From Parvibaculum sp. (GTDB lineage: Bacteria > Pseudomonadota > Alphaproteobacteria > Parvibaculales > Parvibaculaceae), in assembly GCF_030651915.1 (NCBI RefSeq), contig NZ_JAUSBV010000010.1, positions 186,001 to 250,000 on the forward strand: a stretch of 64,000 nucleotides of DNA, written 5' to 3'. Under the pieces are notes generated by a model. It made no database searches, was not told where the DNA came from, and saw nothing but the letters and a program-made list of their open reading frames with translations. The stretch's first letter is position 1. Every line of letters begins with the position of its first letter. Shown here in pieces: positions 20,880-34,348 of this stretch. Made by a program: the position numbers and the translations under genes.

Positions 20880-21620
20880 ATGTCGAGCGAACTCAAACGG
20901 GCCATTGAAGAAGCCTATCGCGTGGTGATCTTCACCGGCGCGGGGATCAGCACGGAATCGGGCATTCCCGATTTCCGCAGCCCCGGCGGCCTCTGGACCA
21001 AAATGGCGCCGATCGATTTTTCCGACTTCATCCGTTCGGAAGAGCTCCGCCGCGAGGCCTGGCGGCGGAAATTCGAGATCGACAAGACCATCGTCGCCGC
21101 CGAACCCAACAAGGGCCATATGGCGATCGCCAAGCTGATCGACAGCGGCAAGGCCTCCCACGTCATCACGCAGAATATCGACAATCTGCATCAGAATTCC
21201 GGCGTGCCGGCCGAGCGCATCATCGAGCTGCATGGCAACGGCACTTATGCCAAATGTCTCGACTGCGGCGCGCGGCACGAATTGCATGAAGTGAAGGCGA
21301 TCTACGATGCCTCGCCGGCGGCGCCGGTCTGCAAGTCCTGCGGCGGCATCGTCAAATCGGCAACGATTTCGTTCGGTCAGGCGATGCCGGAAGAGGAAAT
21401 GCGCCGCGCCGAGGAGGCGACGCTGGGCTGCGATCTTTTCCTGGCGATCGGATCGTCGCTGCAGGTCTATCCGGCGGCCGGCTTTCCGATCCTTGCCAGA
21501 CGCAACGGTGCGATGCTGGCCATCCTCAACCGCGAGCCGACACCGCTCGACGAGATTGCCGATCTTGTCATCCATGACGAGATCGGACCGACGCTGGCGC
21601 CGGTCGCGATGCTGAATTAG
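20880..21620 (+). CDS. cobB: SIR2-family NAD-dependent protein deacylase
   Basis: A 246-residue sirtuin that removes acetyl or acyl groups from protein lysines using NAD. Evidence: the NAD loop FTGAGISTESGIPDFRSPGG, the TQNIDNLH motif, catalytic His118 (ELHGNG), and a zinc site with Cys126, Cys129, Cys151 and Cys154. It lacks the Ala-Tyr-Arg pattern of desuccinylases in an obvious place, so ordinary deacetylation is likely. It starts 74 bp from gloA on the opposite strand. Confidence 0.92.
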   Translation: MSSELKRAIEEAYRVVIFTGAGISTESGIPDFRSPGGLWTKMAPIDFSDFIRSEELRREAWRRKFEIDKTIVAAEPNKGHMAIAKLIDSGKASHVITQNIDNLHQNSGVPAERIIELHGNGTYAKCLDCGARHELHEVKAIYDASPAAPVCKSCGGIVKSATISFGQAMPEEEMRRAEEATLGCDLFLAIGSSLQVYPAAGFPILARRNGAMLAILNREPTPLDEIADLVIHDEIGPTLAPVAMLN

Positions 21621-21641: not shown

Positions 21642-22886
21642 CTAGCTCGGGCGACCTGCGCCGCCGGATTTGCCATTGGAGCCGCCTGACTGGCCGGGCG
21701 CGCTGCCCGATTGCCCGGGCGTGGAGCCGACGAGGCCGGGCGCGGTGCCCGACCGTCCGGGCGTGGAGCCGCCAAGGCCCGGCGCGCTGCCCGGTTGCCC
21801 GGGCGTGGAGCCAGCGAGGCCGGGTGCCGTGCCCGACTGTCCGGGCGTGGAGCCGCCAAGGCCCGGCGCGCTACCCGACTGTCCGGGCGTGGTCCCGGCA
21901 AGGCCCGGCGCGCTACCCGACTGTCCGGGCGTTGTGCCCGAGAGGCCTGGGGTTGCGCCCGACTGACCAGGCGTTGTGCCTGAGGCGCCCGGGGCGGAAC
22001 CCGACTGTCCGGGCGCGGTGGCCGAACGGCCGGCGCTGGCAACCTGCGAGACGCTGTTTCCGGTCGCGCGGACCGCCGGGTCGCTGTCGGCATCATCCGT
22101 TCGGGCGGCGTTGCCGTTGTTACCGTTCATGTCGAGCCCGCGCGCAAGTCCGTTGGTCGATTTGGCGATGTCGACGGCGGCGCGCCGTTCGGCATGGATT
22201 TCCATCGCCTTGCCGGCGCTGCGTGCATGGTCTTCGACCTTGGGGGCGACGCGGGGCGTATCCTGCGCGCGCGCGGCATCCTTGCCGCGCTGAACCGGTT
22301 CCACGCCGGGTCCGCTGACTTCGAGTCCACTTCCCTTGCTGGCCAGCGTATGGGCCGTCTGGCCGGGCCGGACCATGCCCACATCGCCGGTGTCGAGGTC
22401 GATCGTTTCGACCGCGCCCTCCATGACATGGACCGCGGCGCCTTCGGCATCGACCGACACGGTGAATTTCGTCCCTTTGACGACGGCGGCAAGATAGGGG
22501 GTCTCAACCTCGAAATGCTGACGATCCTGCTTGTCGACCTGCAGCAGAATGGTACCGACACGCTGAAGGATGCGCGTCATGCCGCCGCTGTCGCTGTCGG
22601 GCGAAACCGCGATCGAGCTGTTGGGGGAGACCATGATGGATTCGGTGCCGCGCGAAAGGACCACGCGTCCGGTCTCCCCGGTTTCGATCACGGCGCCCGG
22701 TGCGACCGTGCCGTTCGGCGTCAGGGACACCGGCATCGCGCCGCCGGTCTGGATGTAGGCTTCGCCCGACATCATTTCGACATGCCATGAGGAAGAGCCT
22801 CCGGCATGCGCGGACGATGCGGCGAACATCAGGGCCGCTGCAGCAAGAATTCTTCCGCTGCTCAGCTTGCGATGTATGCGGAACAT
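21642..22886 (-). CDS. FecR-domain protein with C-terminal 14-residue tandem repeats
   Basis: A 414-residue exported protein. It has a signal peptide (ILAAAALMFAASSAHAG), a FecR domain at about 30-170 (SGEAYIQTGG, TGETGRVVLSRG, VETPYLAAVVKGTKFTV, the usual end VRPGQ), a charged linker, and then about eight copies of a 14-residue Pro/Gly/Ser/Thr repeat of the type STPGQSGSAPGLAG (residues ~289-400). FecR domains in this setting are periplasmic and often sit beside TpsB and CHASE2 proteins, as here. A good SD (AGGAGG, 8 nt) supports the ATG at 22886. The role of the repeat is unknown. Confidence 0.82.
   Translation of the reverse strand: MFRIHRKLSSGRILAAAALMFAASSAHAGGSSSWHVEMMSGEAYIQTGGAMPVSLTPNGTVAPGAVIETGETGRVVLSRGTESIMVSPNSSIAVSPDSDSGGMTRILQRVGTILLQVDKQDRQHFEVETPYLAAVVKGTKFTVSVDAEGAAVHVMEGAVETIDLDTGDVGMVRPGQTAHTLASKGSGLEVSGPGVEPVQRGKDAARAQDTPRVAPKVEDHARSAGKAMEIHAERRAAVDIAKSTNGLARGLDMNGNNGNAARTDDADSDPAVRATGNSVSQVASAGRSATAPGQSGSAPGASGTTPGQSGATPGLSGTTPGQSGSAPGLAGTTPGQSGSAPGLGGSTPGQSGTAPGLAGSTPGQPGSAPGLGGSTPGRSGTAPGLVGSTPGQSGSAPGQSGGSNGKSGGAGRPS
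21684..22022. repeat. 42-bp tandem repeat array inside the FecR-domain gene
   Basis: About eight head-to-tail 42-bp units encode the PGQSG-SAPGL-type 14-residue repeat. The units differ by a few bases each, so the array is diverged but still in frame. Confidence 0.85.
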
Positions 22887-23114
22887 ATGCGTGGCCTCCT
22901 GGCCTCATTGAACGATCACTTTCATACCATGCCCGCTGCCCGTATTTTCCACTTCTTCGCCGGCTGGTTAAGTCGACCTTAATGCCGGGCGGGTTCTACT
23001 GGCAGCGAGGCGTTGCCACTGGTTAAGGCGGCGTTAACGGCCATCGGTCCTTCGGGAAGCCTGTTTGTTCGTCACTGACGGAATGGACATTCGAGCGGCA
23101 AGAGGTTTGATCGG

Positions 23115-24824
23115 ATGAATTTGAACACTTCTGCCAGCCGACGAAATCGCGCAAACGCGATCGGACTCGCGGCCGTTGTTGCGCTTGTTCATACGACCGC
23201 ACCGGCGACGCTCCGTGCCGCTTCGCTCGACCCGACCCAGGTCGAAAGAGGACTGCAGGACAGCGAACGGCGCTTCATACCGGCGGCGCCGCGCGGGGAT
23301 GGGCCGTCGATCGAAGCCAGGCCCGAGGTTGAAGCGATTCAGGACACAGGTACGTTTCTGCTCGCCGGTGTCCAGCTCAGCGGCGCCGATCTGCTGCCGG
23401 CCGACGAGCTGATATCGGCCTATGAATCTCATGTGGCGACCGAGGTCGACGAGCAGACGATCATGAAGATCGTCGAACGGATCACCACGCGTCTCAAGGA
23501 TGCCGGATACCCGCTGTCCTATGCGCGCATTCCGCCGCAGCATATTGTGGCCGGCATCCTGACGATCGACATCGTGGCCGGCCGTGTCGGCAAGCTGACG
23601 ATGGTCGGCACCGATACGCCTGAACGCTATCGTCCGATATTCCGGACGCTTCTGGAGGCGCCGGTTGCGACACAGGATATGCTGGAACGTGCGATCCTGC
23701 TTCTTCACGACAGCGCGGGGGTTTCCGTCTCGGATATCGCGCTGCAGGAAGACGAGGACCGGCAGGGCGTCTACGAACTTTCACTCGCTCTGGTCGAAAA
23801 GCCGCTTGAATTCTCGGTCTATACCGACAATCGCGGCACGCGTGCGGCAGGGCCGCTGCAGCTCGGTCTTTCGGCGACCTATAACAACCCGCTCGGTCTG
23901 AACGATCAGATCGGCCTGACCTATTTCACCGCGCCGGAAACGCCCGAGGAACTTCAGTATTTTCAGGGCAGCTATCTGCTGCCGATCGGGCCTTCCGGCC
24001 TCACGATGCGTGTCTCGTCGACTTACAACCGGGTCGATGCCGGCGGCAGCCTTGCCAGTGTCGGCACGGAAAGCAGTGCCTTCAGTACCAGCGTGGCCTT
24101 GCGCTATCCGCTCAAACGCAGCCGCAGCCTGTCAATATGGGCCGGGGCAAAGGCCGATTTCCGGGATGCGCGCGAAGAAAACGATTTCGGCACGGTGTTC
24201 GACGACCGGCTTGTCGTTCTGCGGTGGCATATCGATTTCGCATCGACGGATCGCTATGGGGGCGGAAATTTCCTTTCTGCCGAAATCAGCCAGGGTCTGT
24301 CCGTTGCAGGCGCATCCCGGCGCGGCGACCCGGCCTTGTCGCGGGCGGATGGCGGCGGATCTTTCACCAAGCTCAGCGGCGAAATCCATCGTCAGCAGGA
24401 GCTTTTCGTCACCGGTCTTTCGCTTTCGACCCGGCTCGCCGGTCAAATATCGTCGGTGCCGCTGCTGTCGGCCGAGGAATTCGGGCTTGGCGGCGCGCGT
24501 TTCGGACGGGCCTATCAATATGGCGAACTGACGGGGGACGACGGTCTGTCCGGTTCGCTCGAACTCGCCTATTCGCCCGAAATGAACGTCGGACCCTTGT
24601 CGTCGCCGACCGGTTATCTGTTCTACGACATCGGCGCAGTGTGGAACGGCAGCGGTCTTCCGCCGGGCCGGGATTCCCTTTCCTCCGCGGGCGCCGGTAT
24701 ACGCTTCAACCTGGGCGAGCGCACCCATGTCGGCCTGGAGATCGCGAAACCGCTGACCAGGGATGCCGATGAGGGGAATGGGCGCGGTCCGCGGTTCTTC
24801 TTTTCGCTCGCCATCAACTTCTAG
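23115..24824 (+). CDS. TpsB-type outer-membrane transporter (ShlB/FhaC/HecB family)
   Basis: A 569-residue two-partner secretion transporter. It has an N-terminal signal region, POTRA domain(s) at about 75-215 (FLLAGVQLSGADLLPADELI, LKDAGYPLSYARIPPQHI, LTIDIVAGRV), and a C-terminal 16-strand beta-barrel beginning near EFSVYTDNRGTRAAGP, with the FhaC-type motif region GLGGARFGRAYQYGELTGDDG (VRGY/-F equivalent) and terminal Phe (FSLAINF). Such proteins move a TpsA exoprotein across the outer membrane. No TpsA gene is present in this window. It is divergent from the FecR gene and convergent with the CHASE2 kinase. Confidence 0.88.
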   Translation: MNLNTSASRRNRANAIGLAAVVALVHTTAPATLRAASLDPTQVERGLQDSERRFIPAAPRGDGPSIEARPEVEAIQDTGTFLLAGVQLSGADLLPADELISAYESHVATEVDEQTIMKIVERITTRLKDAGYPLSYARIPPQHIVAGILTIDIVAGRVGKLTMVGTDTPERYRPIFRTLLEAPVATQDMLERAILLLHDSAGVSVSDIALQEDEDRQGVYELSLALVEKPLEFSVYTDNRGTRAAGPLQLGLSATYNNPLGLNDQIGLTYFTAPETPEELQYFQGSYLLPIGPSGLTMRVSSTYNRVDAGGSLASVGTESSAFSTSVALRYPLKRSRSLSIWAGAKADFRDAREENDFGTVFDDRLVVLRWHIDFASTDRYGGGNFLSAEISQGLSVAGASRRGDPALSRADGGGSFTKLSGEIHRQQELFVTGLSLSTRLAGQISSVPLLSAEEFGLGGARFGRAYQYGELTGDDGLSGSLELAYSPEMNVGPLSSPTGYLFYDIGAVWNGSGLPPGRDSLSSAGAGIRFNLGERTHVGLEIAKPLTRDADEGNGRGPRFFFSLAINF

Positions 24825-24861
24825 GATCGGCTGACGTCCTGGCCGTCATCCGGCGTCGGGT

Positions 24862-27090
24862 TCAGGCGCCGGCCATGACCGAAGCGGCTTCGTCGTGGGC
24901 AGGGCGCAGCCGGGCAGGCGGGAACTGCAGCGTGACCGTCGTACCTTCGCCCTGAACGCTTTCGATCCGCAGCTGTCCGTCGTGGAGCTTCATATAGGCC
25001 TTGACGAGGGCAAGCCCCAGGCCCGTGCCTTCATGGCTTCGTGCGAGCGATCCGTCGGCCTGGTAGAACGGCTCGGTCACGCGCTCGATGTCCTCCGCGG
25101 CAATGCCGATACCGGGATCGGCGACCGTCAGGCAAAACCCGCCATCTGCTGCGATTGCAGTGCGGATCGTGATCCTGTCGTTCGGCTTGCTGAATTTCGC
25201 GGCATTGGAAAGGAGATTGGTGAGCATCTGCTTGAACAGGCCGGCATCGGCCCAGAGCTGCGTGAAGGCGTGATCGAAGTCGATCGCGAAGGTTTTTCCT
25301 GCAGCCTCTTTCCAGGAGCGGGCGATGCGGATGCAGGCTTCGGTGGCTTCAGCGATATCGATGTTCTCGTCGGCCAGGCTGACCTTGTTCGAGTCGATAC
25401 GCGACAGGTCCAGAATGTCGTTGACCGTCATCAGGAGATGTTTGCCGCTGTCGGTGATATCCGTCGCGTATTGCCGGTATCTTCCGTCACCCAGCGGGCC
25501 GAATATTTCGGCTGTCATCAGTTCCGAGAATCCGATGATCGCGTTCAACGGCGTCCGGAGTTCGTGCCCCATATTCGCGATGAATTCGGTTTTTGCCCGG
25601 CTGGCTTCCTGCTCCTGACGGTGTGCGGCGCGGATCGCCTCCTCCGCCGCATGCCTTTCGGTCACATCGTGAAAGGTATAGGTAACGAGATCGCGCATCG
25701 TGGTCTCGTCATCCGACAGCGTCCGGGGAACCCGTGAGCGGCTCAGTGTATAGCGCAGACACATGGCCCCGCGCGGACCGGACATGTCTTCAAGCAGATA
25801 TTCGCGGGGAAAGTCCCCGTCAGCCTCGGTTGCCTGCAATAGCGTTGCCGGAAGAATGTCCGAAAGCCGCATCTCCGGCGCAAGCCGTTGCCGGTCGATG
25901 CCGAACATCTGTTCGGCAACCGGGTTGATCATTTCGATCTGCCCTTCGGCATCGGCGATGATGATCGCGTCGGGACTGTCATTGACCACGCTGGTGGTCA
26001 GCAGGCGACGATATTCATTCTCGAGCCTTTGTTGCCGGATATGCCGTCGCTGCCGCGCAATCTCCGAGAGAATGGCGCTCGAACAGACAAGCAGGATGGC
26101 GGCGGACCATCCGGCCAGGTTCAGGTCGATGGCGTGATTCCGGAAGAGGAGAAATCCGATCGCCTGCAGCGTGACCAGCGCGACGATGCCGATCAGTTGC
26201 AGCTGGAGCCAGGACATCCGCTTTTGCAGGAAGAAGCCGGCAAATACGATGACGACAAGTCCGGCGATCACGGCAGGCGTGTCCGTCTGCCGGATGACCG
26301 TCCCCGTGGCGAGTGTTTCATAGGCCATGGCCTGAATGGCGGGACCCGACATCACGCCATGCTTCGGCACAGCGAACTGATCGCCGAGCTCGACAGCCGT
26401 TGCGCCGATGATGAACTTCCGGCCTTCGATCTGATCCCGGCCGACTTCGCCGTTCAGCAGATCGATATAGGAGATTCTCGGGATGCCGTGCGTATCGATG
26501 CTGTAATTGGTGTGGAAGAAAAGCTTCTCCCTGTCGGCCCGTCCCGCAAGCAGGGCGGGAAGAGAGAAATGGAACTGTCCATCGAGCTCGACGCCGTAGG
26601 ATCCGCGCCGCACACGGCCATCCCGCTCGGGCGACACATTGACATTGCCGAGCCATGCATGCTCCGCGAACAGCGCCATCGGGCGCGTGACGACGATTTC
26701 ATTGGTTGTGTTTCTGTCGCCGTCGCGCTGAAAGAAGATCGGCAGTATGATGCGGCCCGATGCCCGCGCGAAGGCATCCGCCAGAATGGCGCTGTCTTCG
26801 GGATAGCTCTCGCCGCTGAGGTCGATATCGAGCGCAATCTGGTTGGCGCCGTTTTCGATCAGGATGTCGACGACCTTCGCATGTGTCCGGCGCGATATCG
26901 GCCACTGGTTGAGTGCACGTAATGTCCGGACGTCGATCGCGACGACAGAAAGGGTTCCGGTCGGCTCGATCTCGACAAGATCCATGCGCCGGTCGAGCGT
27001 CCAGAGGTCAATATCCTCCCAGGCCCCGCCAACGCTCAGGATGACGGTTGTCAGGAGAATAGCTATCGAAACGACAAGCTGCTTCACCAT
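24862..27090 (-). CDS. CHASE2-PAS hybrid-less sensor histidine kinase
   Basis: A 742-residue membrane sensor. Order: an N-terminal transmembrane helix, an extracytoplasmic CHASE2 domain (~25-275; LWTLDRRMDL, GANQIALDIDLSGES, GPAIQAMAYETL), three transmembrane helices (~280-345), a PAS domain (~370-480), a HisKA domain with phospho-acceptor His in NMGHELRTPLNAIIGFSE, and a HATPase with N, G1 and G2 boxes (LLSNAAKFS, DPGIGI, GTGLGLALV). No receiver domain or adjacent response regulator is present, so its partner lies elsewhere. It is the third member of the FecR/TpsB/CHASE2 neighbourhood. Confidence 0.9.
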   Translation of the reverse strand: MVKQLVVSIAILLTTVILSVGGAWEDIDLWTLDRRMDLVEIEPTGTLSVVAIDVRTLRALNQWPISRRTHAKVVDILIENGANQIALDIDLSGESYPEDSAILADAFARASGRIILPIFFQRDGDRNTTNEIVVTRPMALFAEHAWLGNVNVSPERDGRVRRGSYGVELDGQFHFSLPALLAGRADREKLFFHTNYSIDTHGIPRISYIDLLNGEVGRDQIEGRKFIIGATAVELGDQFAVPKHGVMSGPAIQAMAYETLATGTVIRQTDTPAVIAGLVVIVFAGFFLQKRMSWLQLQLIGIVALVTLQAIGFLLFRNHAIDLNLAGWSAAILLVCSSAILSEIARQRRHIRQQRLENEYRRLLTTSVVNDSPDAIIIADAEGQIEMINPVAEQMFGIDRQRLAPEMRLSDILPATLLQATEADGDFPREYLLEDMSGPRGAMCLRYTLSRSRVPRTLSDDETTMRDLVTYTFHDVTERHAAEEAIRAAHRQEQEASRAKTEFIANMGHELRTPLNAIIGFSELMTAEIFGPLGDGRYRQYATDITDSGKHLLMTVNDILDLSRIDSNKVSLADENIDIAEATEACIRIARSWKEAAGKTFAIDFDHAFTQLWADAGLFKQMLTNLLSNAAKFSKPNDRITIRTAIAADGGFCLTVADPGIGIAAEDIERVTEPFYQADGSLARSHEGTGLGLALVKAYMKLHDGQLRIESVQGEGTTVTLQFPPARLRPAHDEAASVMAGA

Positions 27091-27244: not shown

Positions 27245-27979
27245 TCAGCGTGCCGTCGCCCAGCCGCCGGCGACCGGGATTAACTGTCCGGTGATGAAGT
27301 CCGACCCCGGCCCCGACAGGAAGGCAACGATGGCGGCGGCCTCTTCGGGCTTGCCGAGGCGCCGCAACGGAATGTTCGACAGGATCTTGTCGCGCGATTT
27401 CGGGTCTTCCATCAGCGCGGCCGGAAAATAGTCCGGGCTTTCGATGAAGTTGAAACCCAGCGCATTGACATGGATGTTGAAGCCGGCAAGCTCCTTGGCC
27501 AGCGTCAGCGCCAGCGAATTGGCCGCGCCGCGCGCGGCGGCATAGATGCTGTAATTCGGAATGCCGTTCAGCGGCGCGGCGGACGACAGAAACAATATCT
27601 TGCCGGCCTTCTGCGCCTTCATTTGCGGCACCGCTGCGCGGGTCATGGCGAAGGACTTGAAGACCAGCGCCTCAAAAGTCTCATGCAGGTCCTTGTCGGT
27701 CGCTTCGTCGACGGCGCCGCGCACGGCCGGCCAGGCATCGTTGTTGATCAGCACATCGAGCTGGCCTTCGGCTTCCAGCACGGCCGCGACCGCCTCATGC
27801 GGGTCCTGCGCGGCCAGTGCCCGGACGCCGGGGACCTTTTTCTCGAAGGCGGCGCGGGCGGCCGCATCGGTGAAGCTGGCATCGACGCCATGGACGGAGG
27901 CGCCTTCCGCCAGAAGGGCCCGGGCCGAAGGTCCGCCGACGAAATGGGCGATGTCGGTGATGAGAATGCTGCGCGCCAT
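27245..27979 (-). CDS. halohydrin dehalogenase (haloalcohol dehalogenase), SDR-derived
   Basis: A 244-residue protein of the SDR fold that does not keep the NAD(P) glycine motif. In its place is T8-x4-F13-x-G15 (TDIAHFVG), the halide/nucleophile-site motif of halohydrin dehalogenases. The catalytic set is S133-x12-Y146-x3-R150, with Arg replacing the usual SDR Lys; in HheC the equivalents are Ser132, Tyr145 and Arg149. The segment NNDAWP also matches the ND- motif seen in HheC. These enzymes reversibly convert vicinal haloalcohols to epoxides and open epoxides with halide, cyanide or azide. The start at 27979 begins the fold exactly. It is divergent from an alpha-glucosidase. Confidence 0.85.
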   Translation of the reverse strand: MARSILITDIAHFVGGPSARALLAEGASVHGVDASFTDAAARAAFEKKVPGVRALAAQDPHEAVAAVLEAEGQLDVLINNDAWPAVRGAVDEATDKDLHETFEALVFKSFAMTRAAVPQMKAQKAGKILFLSSAAPLNGIPNYSIYAAARGAANSLALTLAKELAGFNIHVNALGFNFIESPDYFPAALMEDPKSRDKILSNIPLRRLGKPEEAAAIVAFLSGPGSDFITGQLIPVAGGWATAR

Positions 27980-28092
27980 GTCGGCCCCTGTTCGACGTGA
28001 AATCCCGATTGTCAGCTCCGTCGCCGCCGTGAGACTGTGTCGGCCGGGTCGCAAGGTCAAGATCAGGACGGAAGGAAGCAGAGGTGGGGGGC

Positions 28093-29697
28093 ATGGAGAG
28101 CGAGTGGTGGAAGGGTGCGGTGGTCTATCAGATCTATCCGCGCAGTTTCCGCGATAGCAATGGCGACGGCATCGGCGATCTTCGCGGCATCGAGGAGAAG
28201 CTCGATCATGTCGCCGGGCTCGGCGCCGATGCGATCTGGCTGTCGCCGATCTATCCCTCGCCCAATCGCGATTTCGGCTATGACGTGTCGGACTATTGCG
28301 CCATTGCGCCCGAGATGGGGACAATGGCCGATTTCGACCGGCTGCTGGCCGCGGTCCACAAGCGCGGCATGAAGCTCATTCTCGATCAGGTGCTGGCGCA
28401 TTCGTCGGACCAGCATCAATGGTTCGCCGAAAGCCAACTCTCGGCCGACAATCCGAAATCGGACTGGTATGTCTGGGCCGACGCCAAGGAAGACGGCACG
28501 GTGCCCAACAACTGGCTCTCGGCCTTTGGCGGCCCGGCCTGGTCGTGGAATCCGGTGCGGCGGCAGTATTACCATCACAAGTTTCTGAAGAGCCAGCCGA
28601 AGCTCAACTTCCACAATCCGGACGTCGTTTCGGCCTGCATGGATGTGCTGCGCTTCTGGCTCGACAAGGGCGTCGACGGTTTCCGCCTCGATGTTGCCAA
28701 TTCCTATCTGCACGAGGCGGCGCTGACCGACAATCCGCCGCTGCCGCGCGACGAGCGCAGCTTCCTCGACTGGGCGCATGCGCCGCGCCTGCAACGCCAC
28801 ATCCATGACGCCAACATGCCCGAGAACGAATGGGCGATGAAGCGCGTGCGGGCGACGATGAACGAATACGAAGCGCGGCTGGCCTTCGGCGAGTTTTCGG
28901 AACGGCCGGAAATGTTCGGGCTCTATGCGGGCGGGGCGGAGCGGCTGCATACCGGCTACACCTTCGACTTCCTCGAGGACTGGAGTTTCGCGCCGTCCGT
29001 CTTCCGCCGCTATTACGAGGAATTGCTGGCGCCGATGCCCGAGCTCTTTCCCTGCGTGACCTTTTCCAATCACGACATCGTGCGGCCTGTGACGCGTTGG
29101 GGCGGCGGCAGGGGCGATGAGGGGCTGGCGAAGCTCGGATTGACGCTGCTTCTGGCGCTCAAGGGCACGGTGCTGATGTTCGAGGGCGAGGAGCTGGGGC
29201 TGCCCGAAGTCGATCTCGAACGGCATCACATCAAGGACCCGGTCGGCGATCTCTATTTTCCGTGGTCGAAGGGGCGCGACGGCTGCCGCACGCCGATGCC
29301 GTGGGAGCGTCACACGCATGAGGCCGGCTTCACGGCGGCAACGCCCTGGCTGCCGATCCCCGATTATCACCGCGAGCGGGCGGTCGATGTTCAGCAAGCG
29401 GACGGAAACTCGGTGCTGGCCCATGCCCGCGCCGTCGTTGCGCTCCGCAAGGCGCATCCGGCGCTTGCGCGGGGATCGATCCGCTTTCTCGATGCGGGCG
29501 AGCCGGTGCTGGCTTTCGAGCGCGAAGGCGAGGGGGAAAGGCTGTTCTGTGTCTTTAATCTCGGCAAGAAGCCGGAGCCGGCGCAATTTGCGCTGCCGAA
29601 GGAAGCGGGCGAGGCGGTGTTCACGCTGGGCGAAGTCGAGCGCGAAGGTGCCACGCTGAAACTTGGCGCGCGCGCGGCGGTTGTTTTTCGAGCGTAG
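28093..29697 (+). CDS. GH13 alpha-glucosidase (subfamily 23-like)
   Basis: A 534-residue cytoplasmic alpha-glucosidase hydrolysing alpha-glucosidic bonds in maltose-type or similar substrates. GH13 regions are intact: DQVLAHSSDQHQWF (region I), GFRLDVAN with nucleophile Asp200, AFGEFSE with acid/base Glu267, and FSNHDIVR with the transition-state Asp. The DQV-HSSDQH form of region I is typical of subfamily 23 rather than the oligo-1,6-glucosidases. No signal peptide. The ATG at 28093 follows a GAGGTGGGGG sequence; an in-frame GTG lies 9 nt upstream. A hairpin-ended repeat element follows the gene. Confidence 0.9.
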   Translation: MESEWWKGAVVYQIYPRSFRDSNGDGIGDLRGIEEKLDHVAGLGADAIWLSPIYPSPNRDFGYDVSDYCAIAPEMGTMADFDRLLAAVHKRGMKLILDQVLAHSSDQHQWFAESQLSADNPKSDWYVWADAKEDGTVPNNWLSAFGGPAWSWNPVRRQYYHHKFLKSQPKLNFHNPDVVSACMDVLRFWLDKGVDGFRLDVANSYLHEAALTDNPPLPRDERSFLDWAHAPRLQRHIHDANMPENEWAMKRVRATMNEYEARLAFGEFSERPEMFGLYAGGAERLHTGYTFDFLEDWSFAPSVFRRYYEELLAPMPELFPCVTFSNHDIVRPVTRWGGGRGDEGLAKLGLTLLLALKGTVLMFEGEELGLPEVDLERHHIKDPVGDLYFPWSKGRDGCRTPMPWERHTHEAGFTAATPWLPIPDYHRERAVDVQQADGNSVLAHARAVVALRKAHPALARGSIRFLDAGEPVLAFEREGEGERLFCVFNLGKKPEPAQFALPKEAGEAVFTLGEVEREGATLKLGARAAVVFRA

Positions 29698-30554: not shown

Positions 30555-32168
30555 TCAGTCCCCGCGCCGCCGCTCCCATTCCTCCATCGTGTCGATATCC
30601 TTCAGCGCCGCGTCGTCCGGCATCGGCACTTCGCAGACGGCATCGGCATGTTCGCCGATCAGGTGCCTGGCGCCGGTGTCGCCCTTGGTCTCCTTGATGG
30701 CCGCGAACCATTCGCGGCCCCAGAGGACCGGGTTGCCGCGCTTGCCGCCCACGGTCGGCACGCAGATGGTGCGGCCCTCTTCCGGGTCGAAGGCGGCGAT
30801 CAGGCGGTCGAGATGGTCGGCGCTGATGTCGGGCATGTCGCCGAGGCAGATCAGGGCGGCGTCGACGTCGTCGGGCAGGCCATTTATCCCCACCCTCAGC
30901 GAGGTGCTCAGACCCTCTTTGTGACAGTTATTTGACAGTTTTGTGACAGAGAGGGGTTCGAGCGCTTTTTCGACTGCTGCCGCGCGGTCGCCGGTGACGA
31001 CGATCACCGGCCGCGCCGACGAGGCCAGCGCCGCTTCAGCAACATGCCGAACCATCGCTTTTCCATGAATCGGCATGGTCAGCTTGTTCGGTCCGCCCAT
31101 GCGGCTGGACTGGCCGGCGGCCAGAATTATCGCGGCGACACGGGGACTTGCGGGCTTCGCGCGGGTGCCTTCGCGCGGTTGCGGGCGTGAGGGGATCTCT
31201 TTCAGCAAACCGCCGACGCCCATGCCCATGACATGCTCCGGCGTCACCGCCATGCCGGCCATCAGCCGCGCCAGCACCCAGTCGAAACCGTTGAGCTTCG
31301 GTGAGCGGGCGCAGCCGGGCAGGCCAATGACCGGCGTTTTATCGAGGCGGGCCAACAACATAAGGTTGCCGGGGTCGACCGGCATGCCGAAATGCAGGAC
31401 CTCGCCGCCTGCCTGCGCGATGCCTGCGGGCACGACATCGCGACGATCGACGGTCGCCGAGGCACCGAAGATCAGCACTGGCGACAGGCCCTCGGCGATC
31501 AGTTCGCGGACCGCGCTGGCGACCGCCAAGTCATTGTGTTCGCAGCGGATTTCGCGCGCGATCGTGCTTCCCATCGCGGCGAGACGGGCGTCGAGCACGG
31601 CGCGGCTCTTGTCCATCACGCTTGCTTTGGTGTCCGGCAGTTGCGTGGCGACGAGGCCGACCTTGTGCGCTTTGAACGCATGCAGCGTCATCGCTGCGTC
31701 GCTGCTGCGGGCGATCTCGAGCGCGCGGTCGAGCTCGGCGCGCGGCGCGGCGAAGGGAATTATCTTAATGGTGGCAAGCATTTGTCGTGCGGTCACGGTC
31801 TCGTAGGGCGCAAGCGTCGCCACCGTGATCGCCTCGCCGATGGCGTTGATCGCGGCGATGCGCGCGGCGTCGATCTCGACGATGCCGCCTGCTTCGGCAT
31901 GCAGATTGGCGCGGCCGGTGAAGGGTGCTGCGGCGCGAATGTTGTTGCCTGCCAAGGCCTTGGCGAGCGCTGCCGCCGCTTCGTCCTCGGCCACGTCGTC
32001 CGCTTCGAGGCGCGCGGCGATGACGGTGGCGACGCCCGCCGCTTTCAGCGCCGCCACATCGGCGGCACTCAAGTGCCTGCCTTTCTTGAAGGTTTCGCTT
32101 CCCACTTTCCGCGAATGGGCGAGGATCGCACCTTCTGCTTCTTCCGGTTTCATCTCGCCGAAGATCAT
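30555..32168 (-). CDS. molybdopterin-binding / MocA-type molybdenum cofactor cytidylyltransferase fusion
   Basis: A 537-residue fusion. Residues ~1-340 form a MoCF/MoeA-like molybdopterin-binding region (VTARQMLATIKIIPFAAPR, LIFGASATVDRRDVVPAGI, GLPGCARSPKLNGFDWVLARL). From ~345 a nucleotidyltransferase domain starts with LAAGQSSRMGGPNKL and continues with CLGDMPDI and GGKRGNPVLWG, as in MocA and MobA. In MocA enzymes it converts molybdopterin-Mo to the cytosine dinucleotide cofactor required by xanthine-oxidase-family enzymes. That fits its place as the last gene of the cox cluster, overlapping the XdhC gene by 4 bp. Confidence 0.88.
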   Translation of the reverse strand: MIFGEMKPEEAEGAILAHSRKVGSETFKKGRHLSAADVAALKAAGVATVIAARLEADDVAEDEAAAALAKALAGNNIRAAAPFTGRANLHAEAGGIVEIDAARIAAINAIGEAITVATLAPYETVTARQMLATIKIIPFAAPRAELDRALEIARSSDAAMTLHAFKAHKVGLVATQLPDTKASVMDKSRAVLDARLAAMGSTIAREIRCEHNDLAVASAVRELIAEGLSPVLIFGASATVDRRDVVPAGIAQAGGEVLHFGMPVDPGNLMLLARLDKTPVIGLPGCARSPKLNGFDWVLARLMAGMAVTPEHVMGMGVGGLLKEIPSRPQPREGTRAKPASPRVAAIILAAGQSSRMGGPNKLTMPIHGKAMVRHVAEAALASSARPVIVVTGDRAAAVEKALEPLSVTKLSNNCHKEGLSTSLRVGINGLPDDVDAALICLGDMPDISADHLDRLIAAFDPEEGRTICVPTVGGKRGNPVLWGREWFAAIKETKGDTGARHLIGEHADAVCEVPMPDDAALKDIDTMEEWERRRGD

Positions 32169-32842
32169 TGGCGCAGGGTCTCCGTGATTTGCGCCATGAT
32201 CGAGATCGCGATCTCGGCCGGGCTTTTCGCGCCGATCGACAGGCCGACCGGCCCGTGAATGCGAGCAATATCAATGTCTTCGAAGCCGGCTTCGTTCAGC
32301 CGCGCGAGGCGCGCCGCATGCGTCTTCTTCGAGCCGAGCGCGCCGATATAGAAGGCGGGGCTCTTCAGCGCCGCCTGCAGCGCCGGGTCGTCGAGCTTCG
32401 GGTCATGGGTCAGCGTAACGACCGCCGTGCGCGTGTCGGGCGCCAGCGCGGCCATCGCCTCGTCCGGCCAGTCGTGGCGCAAGTCGATGTCCGGAAAGCG
32501 GTTTTCGGAGGCGAAGGCGGTGCGCGGGTCGATCACCGTCACGTCGTAGCCGGCGAGAGCGGCCATGCGCGCCAGCGGCTGTGCGATGTGAACGGCGCCG
32601 ACAATGACGAGGCGCAGCGGCGGGTTGAAGGGGTTGAGGAACCAGTCGCCATCGGGGCCGGTGATGACCGTCGCGCGGTCGCTCGCCAGCACTTCATGCG
32701 ATGCTTTAATTAACCAGTTTTCTTTTTGTTTTTCAGTTGGATAGAGGAGTTCCCCGAATCCATCTGTTAACCGTGTTGCCAGCACCACCGGGCGCTTGGC
32801 GGCGCGATCCTTGACCAGTTGTGCGAGGATTGCGGCGTCCAT
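32165..32842 (-). CDS. XdhC/CoxI family maturation factor, C-terminal-type Rossmann subunit
   Basis: A 225-residue protein with the XdhC Rossmann domain (LRLVIVGAVHIAQPLARMAALAGYDVTVIDPR; later FYIGALGSKKTHAARLARL and IHGPVGLSIGAKSPAEIAISIMAQI). XdhC-type proteins bind the molybdenum cofactor, help insert the terminal sulfur ligand and deliver it to the large subunit. Its N-terminal part is reduced; the matching XdhC_CoxI N-terminal domain is a separate gene one nucleotide upstream. The stop overlaps the MocA-type fusion. Confidence 0.88.
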   Translation of the reverse strand: MDAAILAQLVKDRAAKRPVVLATRLTDGFGELLYPTEKQKENWLIKASHEVLASDRATVITGPDGDWFLNPFNPPLRLVIVGAVHIAQPLARMAALAGYDVTVIDPRTAFASENRFPDIDLRHDWPDEAMAALAPDTRTAVVTLTHDPKLDDPALQAALKSPAFYIGALGSKKTHAARLARLNEAGFEDIDIARIHGPVGLSIGAKSPAEIAISIMAQITETLRQ

Positions 32843-32843
32843 C

Positions 32844-33179
32844 TCAGCCCGTCACCGGTTCGACCATGACGCGGATGCGGCCGCCACAGGCCAGTCCAAC
32901 CTCCCATGCCATGGCGTCGGAAACGCCATATTCGAGCATTTCCGGCTTGCCGCTGGTCAGCGTCTCAAGCGCGCGCGTCACCACATCGCCTTCGATGCAG
33001 CCGCCGGACACGGAACCCACAAAGCTGCCGTCGTCGCGGATCGCGAGTTGGCTGCCGACGGGCCGCGGCGCCGAGCCCCAGGTTTCGATGACGGTTGCGA
33101 GTGCGACCCTGCGGCCTTCGGCGCGCCAGTGAGCCGCTTCCTCCAACACATTGTTATCGCTGGTGTTTTTGTCGGTCAC
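32844..33179 (-). CDS. XdhC_CoxI N-terminal-domain protein
   Basis: A 111-residue protein holding only the XdhC_CoxI domain: ALATVIETWGSAPRPVGSQLAI, then GSFVGSVSGGCIEGDVV with the conserved GGCIE cysteine, and ending GLACGGRIRVMVEPV. It therefore pairs with the separate Rossmann subunit encoded just downstream (1-nt gap). The start is GTG at 33179, overlapping the CoxE stop by 4 bp. Role: molybdenum cofactor handling for the CoxL-type enzyme. Confidence 0.88.
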   Translation of the reverse strand: MTDKNTSDNNVLEEAAHWRAEGRRVALATVIETWGSAPRPVGSQLAIRDDGSFVGSVSGGCIEGDVVTRALETLTSGKPEMLEYGVSDAMAWEVGLACGGRIRVMVEPVTG

Positions 33180-34348
33180 GCGGCTTTCCTTTCCGGCATG
33201 CGCGCCGGTGCTTGCGACAGCGCTTCGATCAGCGCCGTCAGCGAGGCGATGTTGTGGACCGGGCGGAACTCGTCGACATGCGGCAGCAATGCTCGGATCC
33301 CCAATGATTTCGGTTCGAAGCGCTCATAGCGCAAGAGCGGATTGAGCCAGATCAACCGTCGCGCGCGCCGGTGCAGCCGGGCGATTTCAGGGCCGAGGCC
33401 TTCGCCGGCATCGCGGTCAAGGCCGTCGGTGACCAGCAGAACCGTCGCGCCCTGGCCCAGAACCCGCCGCGCCCAGTCGATATTGAAGCGGCGCAGGGTC
33501 TCGCCGATGCGGGTGCCGCCGTCCCAGTCCTCAACCCTGGCGGCAACGCGGGCCAGCGCCTCGTCGACATCGCGGTGGCGGAGCTCGCGCGTCACATTGG
33601 TCAGGCGGGTGCCGAACAGGAAGACATGCACGCGGTCGCGGTCATTGGTCAGCGCGTGCAAAAAGTGAAGGAAAACACGGCTATAGGCCGACATCGACCC
33701 GGAAATATCACAAAGCACGACCAGCGGCGGGCGGCGCCGGCGGAAGGTGCGGCGCTTCAGCGGGATGACGCCGCCGGCGCGCAGGCTTGCCCGCAGGGTG
33801 GCGCGCATGTCAATCATCGGTCCGCGCGCGGCGGGCCTTGTGCGGCGGATGCGGGCCTCGTCATGGGTGAGGCGCAGGCGGGCGATGGCGGCTTTGGCTT
33901 CGGCCAGTTCGGCCACCGACATCTGCTCGAAGTCCTTGGTCTGCAACAGTTCTTCGGCCGAGAAGGTTTCGCTGCGGTCGATTTCGAGCTCGGGTTCGGC
34001 CGCCTCCCGCGGTTTGGCATCGCCAAAGAGCGCTTCGGCCAGGCGGCGGCTTTGCTCTTCCCGTGGTGCACCGGGCGGGGTTTTGAGTTCGGGCAGCATC
34101 AGCGCCATCATCCGGTCGAGCAGCTTCGGATCGCGCCAGAAGACATGGAAAGCCTGATCGAAAATGTGATGCTGGTCGCGGCGTTTAACCAGCGTCGCGT
34201 GCAGCGTCCAGTAGAAATCGGCGCGGGCGCCGATGCCGGCGGCTTCAACCGCCTCGACCGCGTCGAGCACCTGACGCGGGCCCACGGGTAGTCCGGCCCG
34301 GCGCAGCACGCGGGCGAAATGAACGATATTTTCGGCGAGACGGCCCAT
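33176..34348 (-). CDS. coxE: CoxE-family VWA-domain protein
   Basis: A 390-residue protein with a C-terminal von Willebrand A domain whose MIDAS motif DISGSMS is intact and followed by the usual Thr/Asp positions (DGGTRIGETL, LLVTDGLDRD). CoxE works with the AAA+ ATPase CoxD in assembling the Cu/Mo or Mo active site of CO dehydrogenase-type enzymes. The ATG at 34348 comes one nucleotide after the coxD stop. Basic patches (KRRTFRRRRPP) precede the VWA domain. Confidence 0.9.
   Translation of the reverse strand: MGRLAENIVHFARVLRRAGLPVGPRQVLDAVEAVEAAGIGARADFYWTLHATLVKRRDQHHIFDQAFHVFWRDPKLLDRMMALMLPELKTPPGAPREEQSRRLAEALFGDAKPREAAEPELEIDRSETFSAEELLQTKDFEQMSVAELAEAKAAIARLRLTHDEARIRRTRPAARGPMIDMRATLRASLRAGGVIPLKRRTFRRRRPPLVVLCDISGSMSAYSRVFLHFLHALTNDRDRVHVFLFGTRLTNVTRELRHRDVDEALARVAARVEDWDGGTRIGETLRRFNIDWARRVLGQGATVLLVTDGLDRDAGEGLGPEIARLHRRARRLIWLNPLLRYERFEPKSLGIRALLPHVDEFRPVHNIASLTALIEALSQAPARMPERKAA

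Follow-up and report, generated by a model that had tools for sequence, protein, structure and literature searches.

The gene at 27245..27979 (minus strand) of the 64,000-nucleotide stretch of Parvibaculum sp. DNA analysed here (the window) in all likelihood encodes a cofactor-independent halohydrin dehalogenase (HHDH), the Parvibaculum ortholog of HheA3 (HHDH-PL). The gene belongs to a fixed chromosomal block found in four genera of the family, with several losses. As the enzyme would be one more close sequence variant of a biocatalyst in use, its practical value is modest. The new part is the conserved, repeatedly lost locus, which is relevant to the question of what HHDHs do in nature.

Motifs of the dehalogenase

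The reading frame starts with an ATG at 27979, stops at 27245-27247 and translates into a product of 244 aa. In PMC11976700 and PMC4989007, HHDHs are separated from the short-chain dehydrogenases (SDRs) by a pair of patterns, T-x4-F/Y-x-G (motif 1) and S-x12-Y-x3-R (motif 2, the catalytic triad), and motif 1 is described as a nucleophile-pocket motif standing where SDRs have their Gly-rich NAD(P) motif (PMC11976700). A set of 19 enzymes selected from those found by motif is stated to have had HHDH activity confirmed after expression (PMC4989007). A pattern scan of the window protein found TDIAHFVG at residues 8-15, which fits motif 1 as T8-x4-F13-x-G15 (codons at 27935..27958, minus strand), and SAAPLNGIPNYSIYAAAR at residues 133-150, which fits motif 2 as S133-x12-Y146-x3-R150 (codons at 27530..27583, minus strand). 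Neither the SDR motif 1 pattern, T-G/A-x3-G/A-x-G, nor the SDR motif 2 pattern, S-x10-14-Y-x3-K, was present in the protein, which likewise lacks both hallmarks of classical NAD(P)-dependent SDRs, TG-x3-G-x-G and Y-x3-K. The HHDH pair is retained in complete Parvibaculaceae orthologs, down to 57 % identity.

The original prediction, made from the DNA letters, had pointed to this replacement of the glycine motif and of the catalytic Lys by Arg, and had aligned the positions with those of HheC from Agrobacterium radiobacter AD1 (PDB 1pwx). Both readings are borne out. The numbering of the window protein is that of HheC plus one, and besides its catalytic Ser the triad of HheC comprises Y145 and R149. 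That Ser is given as S132 (PMC4989007), and the motif 1 residues of HheC as T7, F12 and G14 (PMC11976700).

The motif pair was also used to sort SDR-like loci in the window's own genome (matches at E≤1e-5) and in G014, which was taken as P. lavamentivorans DS-1 (E≤1e-6), by scanning every ORF of at least 150 codons at each locus, neighbours included. Each genome gave 38 matches. In the window's genome the HHDH pair was found once, in the window gene, while 29 matches had the SDR pair and 8 had neither; the corresponding numbers in G014 are 1, 31 and 6. The presence of the HHDH pair in the window protein is hence more than a chance match. The further claim that the pair marks HHDHs agrees with the literature cited above.

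Relation to HheA3 and HheC

The single motif-bearing protein among the 38 matches in G014 and the window protein have 90 % identity. As the only such protein it is, by elimination, very probably HheA3/HHDH-PL, and because of this the window gene is strongly indicated to be a further ortholog of an enzyme that has already been characterised. HheA3, or HHDH-PL, is the characterised HHDH of P. lavamentivorans DS-1; PMC4989007 reports its activity, a thermostability greater than that of HheC and preparative-scale use, counts it as subtype A, and notes that it is without the hydrogen-bond partner supplied by Thr134 in HheC. When the sequences were aligned, the position of HheC Thr134 was Ala in both the G014 and the window proteins. 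Within the open-licence literature, a Parvibaculum HHDH is treated only in PMC4989007, which cites Wan et al. (2014).

The G014 and window proteins agree in their motifs and in the conserved genes that flank them. However, about 10 % of the residues differ, and in the window genome three additional genes separate the dehalogenase gene from the Sir2 gene. HheC also shares the motifs; its identity to the window protein is 35 %, and Pro175 in its GPNY loop corresponds to Phe in the window protein, a difference in the pocket.

We infer the activity and mechanism of the window protein by analogy. Ser133 and Tyr146 would bind the substrate oxygen, with a vicinal haloalcohol held by Ser133, and Arg150 would lower the pKa of Tyr146, which would remove the proton of the haloalcohol. 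An epoxide would form as the alkoxide displaces the halide, which would leave into the pocket that replaces the NAD(P) site of SDRs and would be lined here by Thr8, Phe13 and Gly15. In the reverse direction, an epoxide would be opened by halide, azide, cyanide or nitrite.

A conserved chromosomal block

Twenty-seven genomes of the genus were searched with the window protein (E≤1e-45). An intact ortholog, 62-100 % identical, was found in 12, that of the window included. In G011 the ortholog is split over the ends of contigs into two pieces that overlap, and in G025 the copy is shortened, with the first half of the gene gone and no alpha-glucosidase match adjoining. G003 and G007 have no HheA3-type ortholog and only an HHDH of approximately 40 % identity elsewhere in the genome. 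The remaining 11 genomes gave no match at this limit; four of them are less than 88 % complete, and one (G005) has three remnant pieces of the dehalogenase gene at the locus. Outside the genus, seven of ten genomes of the family include an ortholog, with identities of 57-63 %.

On one side, the dehalogenase gene is divergent from an adjoining gene of the alpha-amylase family (28084..29697, plus strand; Pfam PF00128), a putative alpha-glucosidase gene by our reading of the family. This arrangement was seen in all ten of the intact genus relatives fetched, and the alpha-glucosidase gene is also on this flank in six of the seven family relatives from outside the genus (not in G030), bringing the number to 16 of 17. 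On the opposite side, the next conserved gene is a Sir2-family gene (20880..21620, plus strand; Pfam PF02146). This is the case in nine of the ten genus relatives (the Sir2 gene is about 6 kb off in G019) and in all seven relatives from three further genera, with gaps of up to about 1.5 kb, where the queries were 14 window genes and any other genes inside the gaps would not show. Genes for MobA-like, XdhC and Cox-like proteins lie farther out in the block. None of the neighbour genes was found in G039, the one relative fetched from another family. The alpha-glucosidase and Sir2 genes are also present with no HHDH gene between them in seven genomes of the genus, namely G001, G003, G004, G006, G007, G013 and G016. 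The conserved locus is not discussed in the open-licence literature searched, a scope outside which most subscription papers fall.

In the window, the space separating the dehalogenase gene from the Sir2 gene is occupied by a trio of genes for FecR, ShlB-type and CHASE2 histidine kinase proteins (21642..27090; identified using Pfam). No row for this trio was obtained at E≤1e-8 in the loci of the 30 relatives compared, and the trio is outside the conserved block. The CHASE2 kinase was considered as a conserved partner of the dehalogenase and ruled out, as at E≤1e-100 it was found in one of the 27 genus genomes, that of the window, and in no other of the 27.

The intergenic stretch from which the dehalogenase and alpha-glucosidase genes diverge (27980..28083) was compared in ten rows, one of which (L065) covered a different stretch and was left out. 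Two blocks in it, CCGTGAGACTGTG and AAGGTCAAG, are conserved in all nine usable Parvibaculum rows and are possibly part of facing promoters. No consensus sigma-70 promoters were found between 27000 and 28300, against 0.1 expected, and no RNA families were found at the gathering score between 20000 and 36000.

Selection on the gene

Comparison of the window gene with 13 orthologs (Nei-Gojobori) gave dN/dS values of 0.06-0.15 for the eight closer ones. Among the five farther pairs, four gave values of 0.12-0.33 and the fifth was saturated and gave no value. The dehalogenase gene is under purifying selection. In addition, the identity of each dehalogenase to that of the window tracks the identity of the neighbour genes, with Spearman coefficients of 0.78-0.84 over 15 loci (of the 17 relatives in which the gene is intact and syntenic, L133 and L168 were left out), related genomes not being independent observations. 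Together, the tracking and the dN/dS values indicate that the gene has long been at this site and is maintained by selection. It is nevertheless dispensable, as several members of the genus are without the gene at the site or have only remnants of it.

Natural role

The conserved block and the purifying selection argue against a recent acquisition for xenobiotic breakdown. Because the gene seems to have been in the chromosome for a long time, general handling of epoxides and haloalcohols is more likely to be its role than a recently acquired xenobiotic pathway. There is also no sign of a dedicated pathway, because the EHN-type epoxide hydrolase genes are on another contig and are present with or without the dehalogenase. 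The window's genome (G000) has two neighbouring genes of this type on contig C3 (L193 and L194, matches at 31764-33297), and EHN-type genes were found in 26 of the 27 genus genomes, with two matches in 24, including genomes where the dehalogenase is absent. A dedicated epoxide hydrolase at the locus was therefore rejected. An epoxide made by the dehalogenase could be hydrolysed in trans, and the two kinds of gene show no link by position or presence.

These observations bear on a refinement of the HHDH reading, to which we give somewhat less than an even chance, namely that dehalogenation is a side activity and that the native reaction is the opening or closing of epoxides with another anion, or another reaction at the same site. 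In broader form, and held just as tentatively, the HHDHs of this lineage may be long-inherited enzymes with a native, non-xenobiotic role, perhaps in reversible anion-epoxide chemistry, with haloalcohol breakdown a by-product. Consistent with a side activity are the block fixed in four genera, the purifying selection on the gene, the lack of a linked epoxide hydrolase, and the finding of zero matches to the window protein on plasmids at E≤1e-30. According to a 2016 review, an epoxide hydrolase shares an operon with no more than two of the known HHDH genes, and HHDHs may have further physiological functions (PMC4989007). However, nothing positive points to any particular native substrate, and the several losses in the genus imply that the role is not essential. 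If a native role of this kind is real, the divergent pairing with the alpha-glucosidase gene would reflect shared regulation. The genus provides a testable case: some species keep the gene under selection, others have none at the site, and in one or more it has decayed.

The losses themselves could be read as a gene that is decaying and leaving the genus, with no present role; the remnants in G005, the shortened copy in G025 and the seven genomes with the alpha-glucosidase and Sir2 genes but no HHDH gene between them are in line with this. However, the window copy is intact, and with dN/dS at the low values found against the closer orthologs we consider general decay very unlikely.

Placement among HHDHs and SDRs

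Classification of the protein by profile gives a different impression from its motifs. Pfam returned two hits only, to adh_short_C2 and adh_short, both general SDR families and both well over the cut-off, and the best 25 of 199 NCBIfam rows were all SDR-type enzymes with scores under their cut-offs. The concern that such a gene would be overlooked as an ordinary SDR was therefore justified.

Among solved structures, the top relative is PDB entry 6a41, named 'dehalogenase' (214 bits). It is the closest solved chain by sequence, 44 % identical to the window protein and with the same motifs, but sits in a different supported clade in the tree described below; a literature search found no paper tying 6a41 to a dehalogenase. 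The next chains are named halohydrin dehalogenase or epoxidase A and score 121-141 bits, with HheC (1pwx) at 132 bits. Two further entries, 8xxb (118 bits) and 7b73 (110 bits), were deposited as SDRs, yet the alignments show both HHDH motifs in each. We take 7b73 to be HheD2, and both entries to represent the HheD-like subtype. The best remaining SDR in the search was tropinone reductase-I, at 93 bits.

A tree was built from 61 rows, made up of 13 SDRs and 48 rows assigned to the HHDH side by similarity, of which 38 have the strict motif pair and ten do not. The HHDH side includes seven PDB chains (6a41, 1pwx, 1zmo, 4z9f, 4zd6, 7b73 and 8xxb); a G-type reference is absent. One branch with support of 100/100 split the 48 rows from the 13 SDRs, and the split corresponded to a single change in every one of 200 bootstrap trees. 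The phylogeny proposed as a check on the original prediction hence places the window protein on the HHDH side. It shares a large branch (99/95) with HheA, HheC and 6a41, the inner forks of which are partly open, and this is also as far as the tree goes towards a subtype A placement. HheA and HheA2 (4z9f and 1zmo) are in this branch but outside the nearest rows of the window protein, to which HheA2 is 33 % identical. HheB (4zd6) and the two HheD-like chains have the HHDH motifs and fall on the same side of the HHDH/SDR split, but in a separate branch (100/97). One row from another family (L142) falls within the eight-row clade to which the rows of the Parvibaculum family belong (97/98), and some transfer is possible.

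Motifs, solved relatives and tree, together with the 90 % identity to the probable HheA3, support the placement of the window protein with the halohydrin dehalogenases that was originally predicted. That it is instead an ordinary NAD(P)-dependent SDR with an eroded glycine motif is scarcely credible, for although its Pfam families put it in the SDR superfamily, it has neither the Gly-rich motif nor the catalytic Lys, the HHDH pair has been kept in complete orthologs down to 57 % identity, and the protein groups with the solved dehalogenases apart from all 13 SDRs.

Distribution of the family

The family had also been described as rare, and whether it is hinges on the sample drawn. In a draw of 398 genomes from the phylum, six had a match at E≤1e-26 and five had the strict motif pair, which argues against calling the family common. 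Among 385 genomes drawn from the class, a match at the same limit was found in 58, and a scan of the loci of all 58 found the strict F/Y pair in 40; both sets of counts exclude more distant HHDHs below the E limit. The other 18 matching genomes of the class draw comprise three with Trp in motif 1, seven with the SDR pair and eight with neither. Six of these eight (G070, G128, G160, G220, G240 and G387) have HHDH-like proteins with an element missing or cut by a contig end. A pattern search of viral contigs gave 21 matches, none of which was confirmed as a relative.

A number of the HHDH-like proteins found in relatives are atypical. Trp is the motif 1 aromatic residue in L146, L148 and L151 (main match), which were for this reason missed by the strict F/Y search. 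In L147, L156 and L174 (7412-8140), motif 2 is kept and the Thr of motif 1 is replaced by Ser or Ile. The proteins at L179 (2086-2817), L181 (1914-2693) and L182 (1732-2448) have T-x4-Y-x-G, and in their motif 2 Ser and Arg are retained while the catalytic Tyr is replaced by Ala or Pro. The HHDHs of about 40 % identity in G007 (L170, 7052-7777) and G003 (L171, 6515-7249) represent a second type at another place in the genome, and Pfam showed no clear pathway among ten neighbour proteins.

Two adjacent HHDH-like genes were found in three genomes of one alphaproteobacterial genus (L173, 6857-8337; L174, 6647-8140; L175, 6777-8249). One protein of each pair keeps S-x12-Y-x3-R. In the second, the motif 1 aromatic residue is replaced by G, P or S and the catalytic Arg by Gln, and this protein is possibly a non-catalytic partner subunit. 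All six fall into a single clade (100/97) made up of two sister groups, as if derived from one old duplication.
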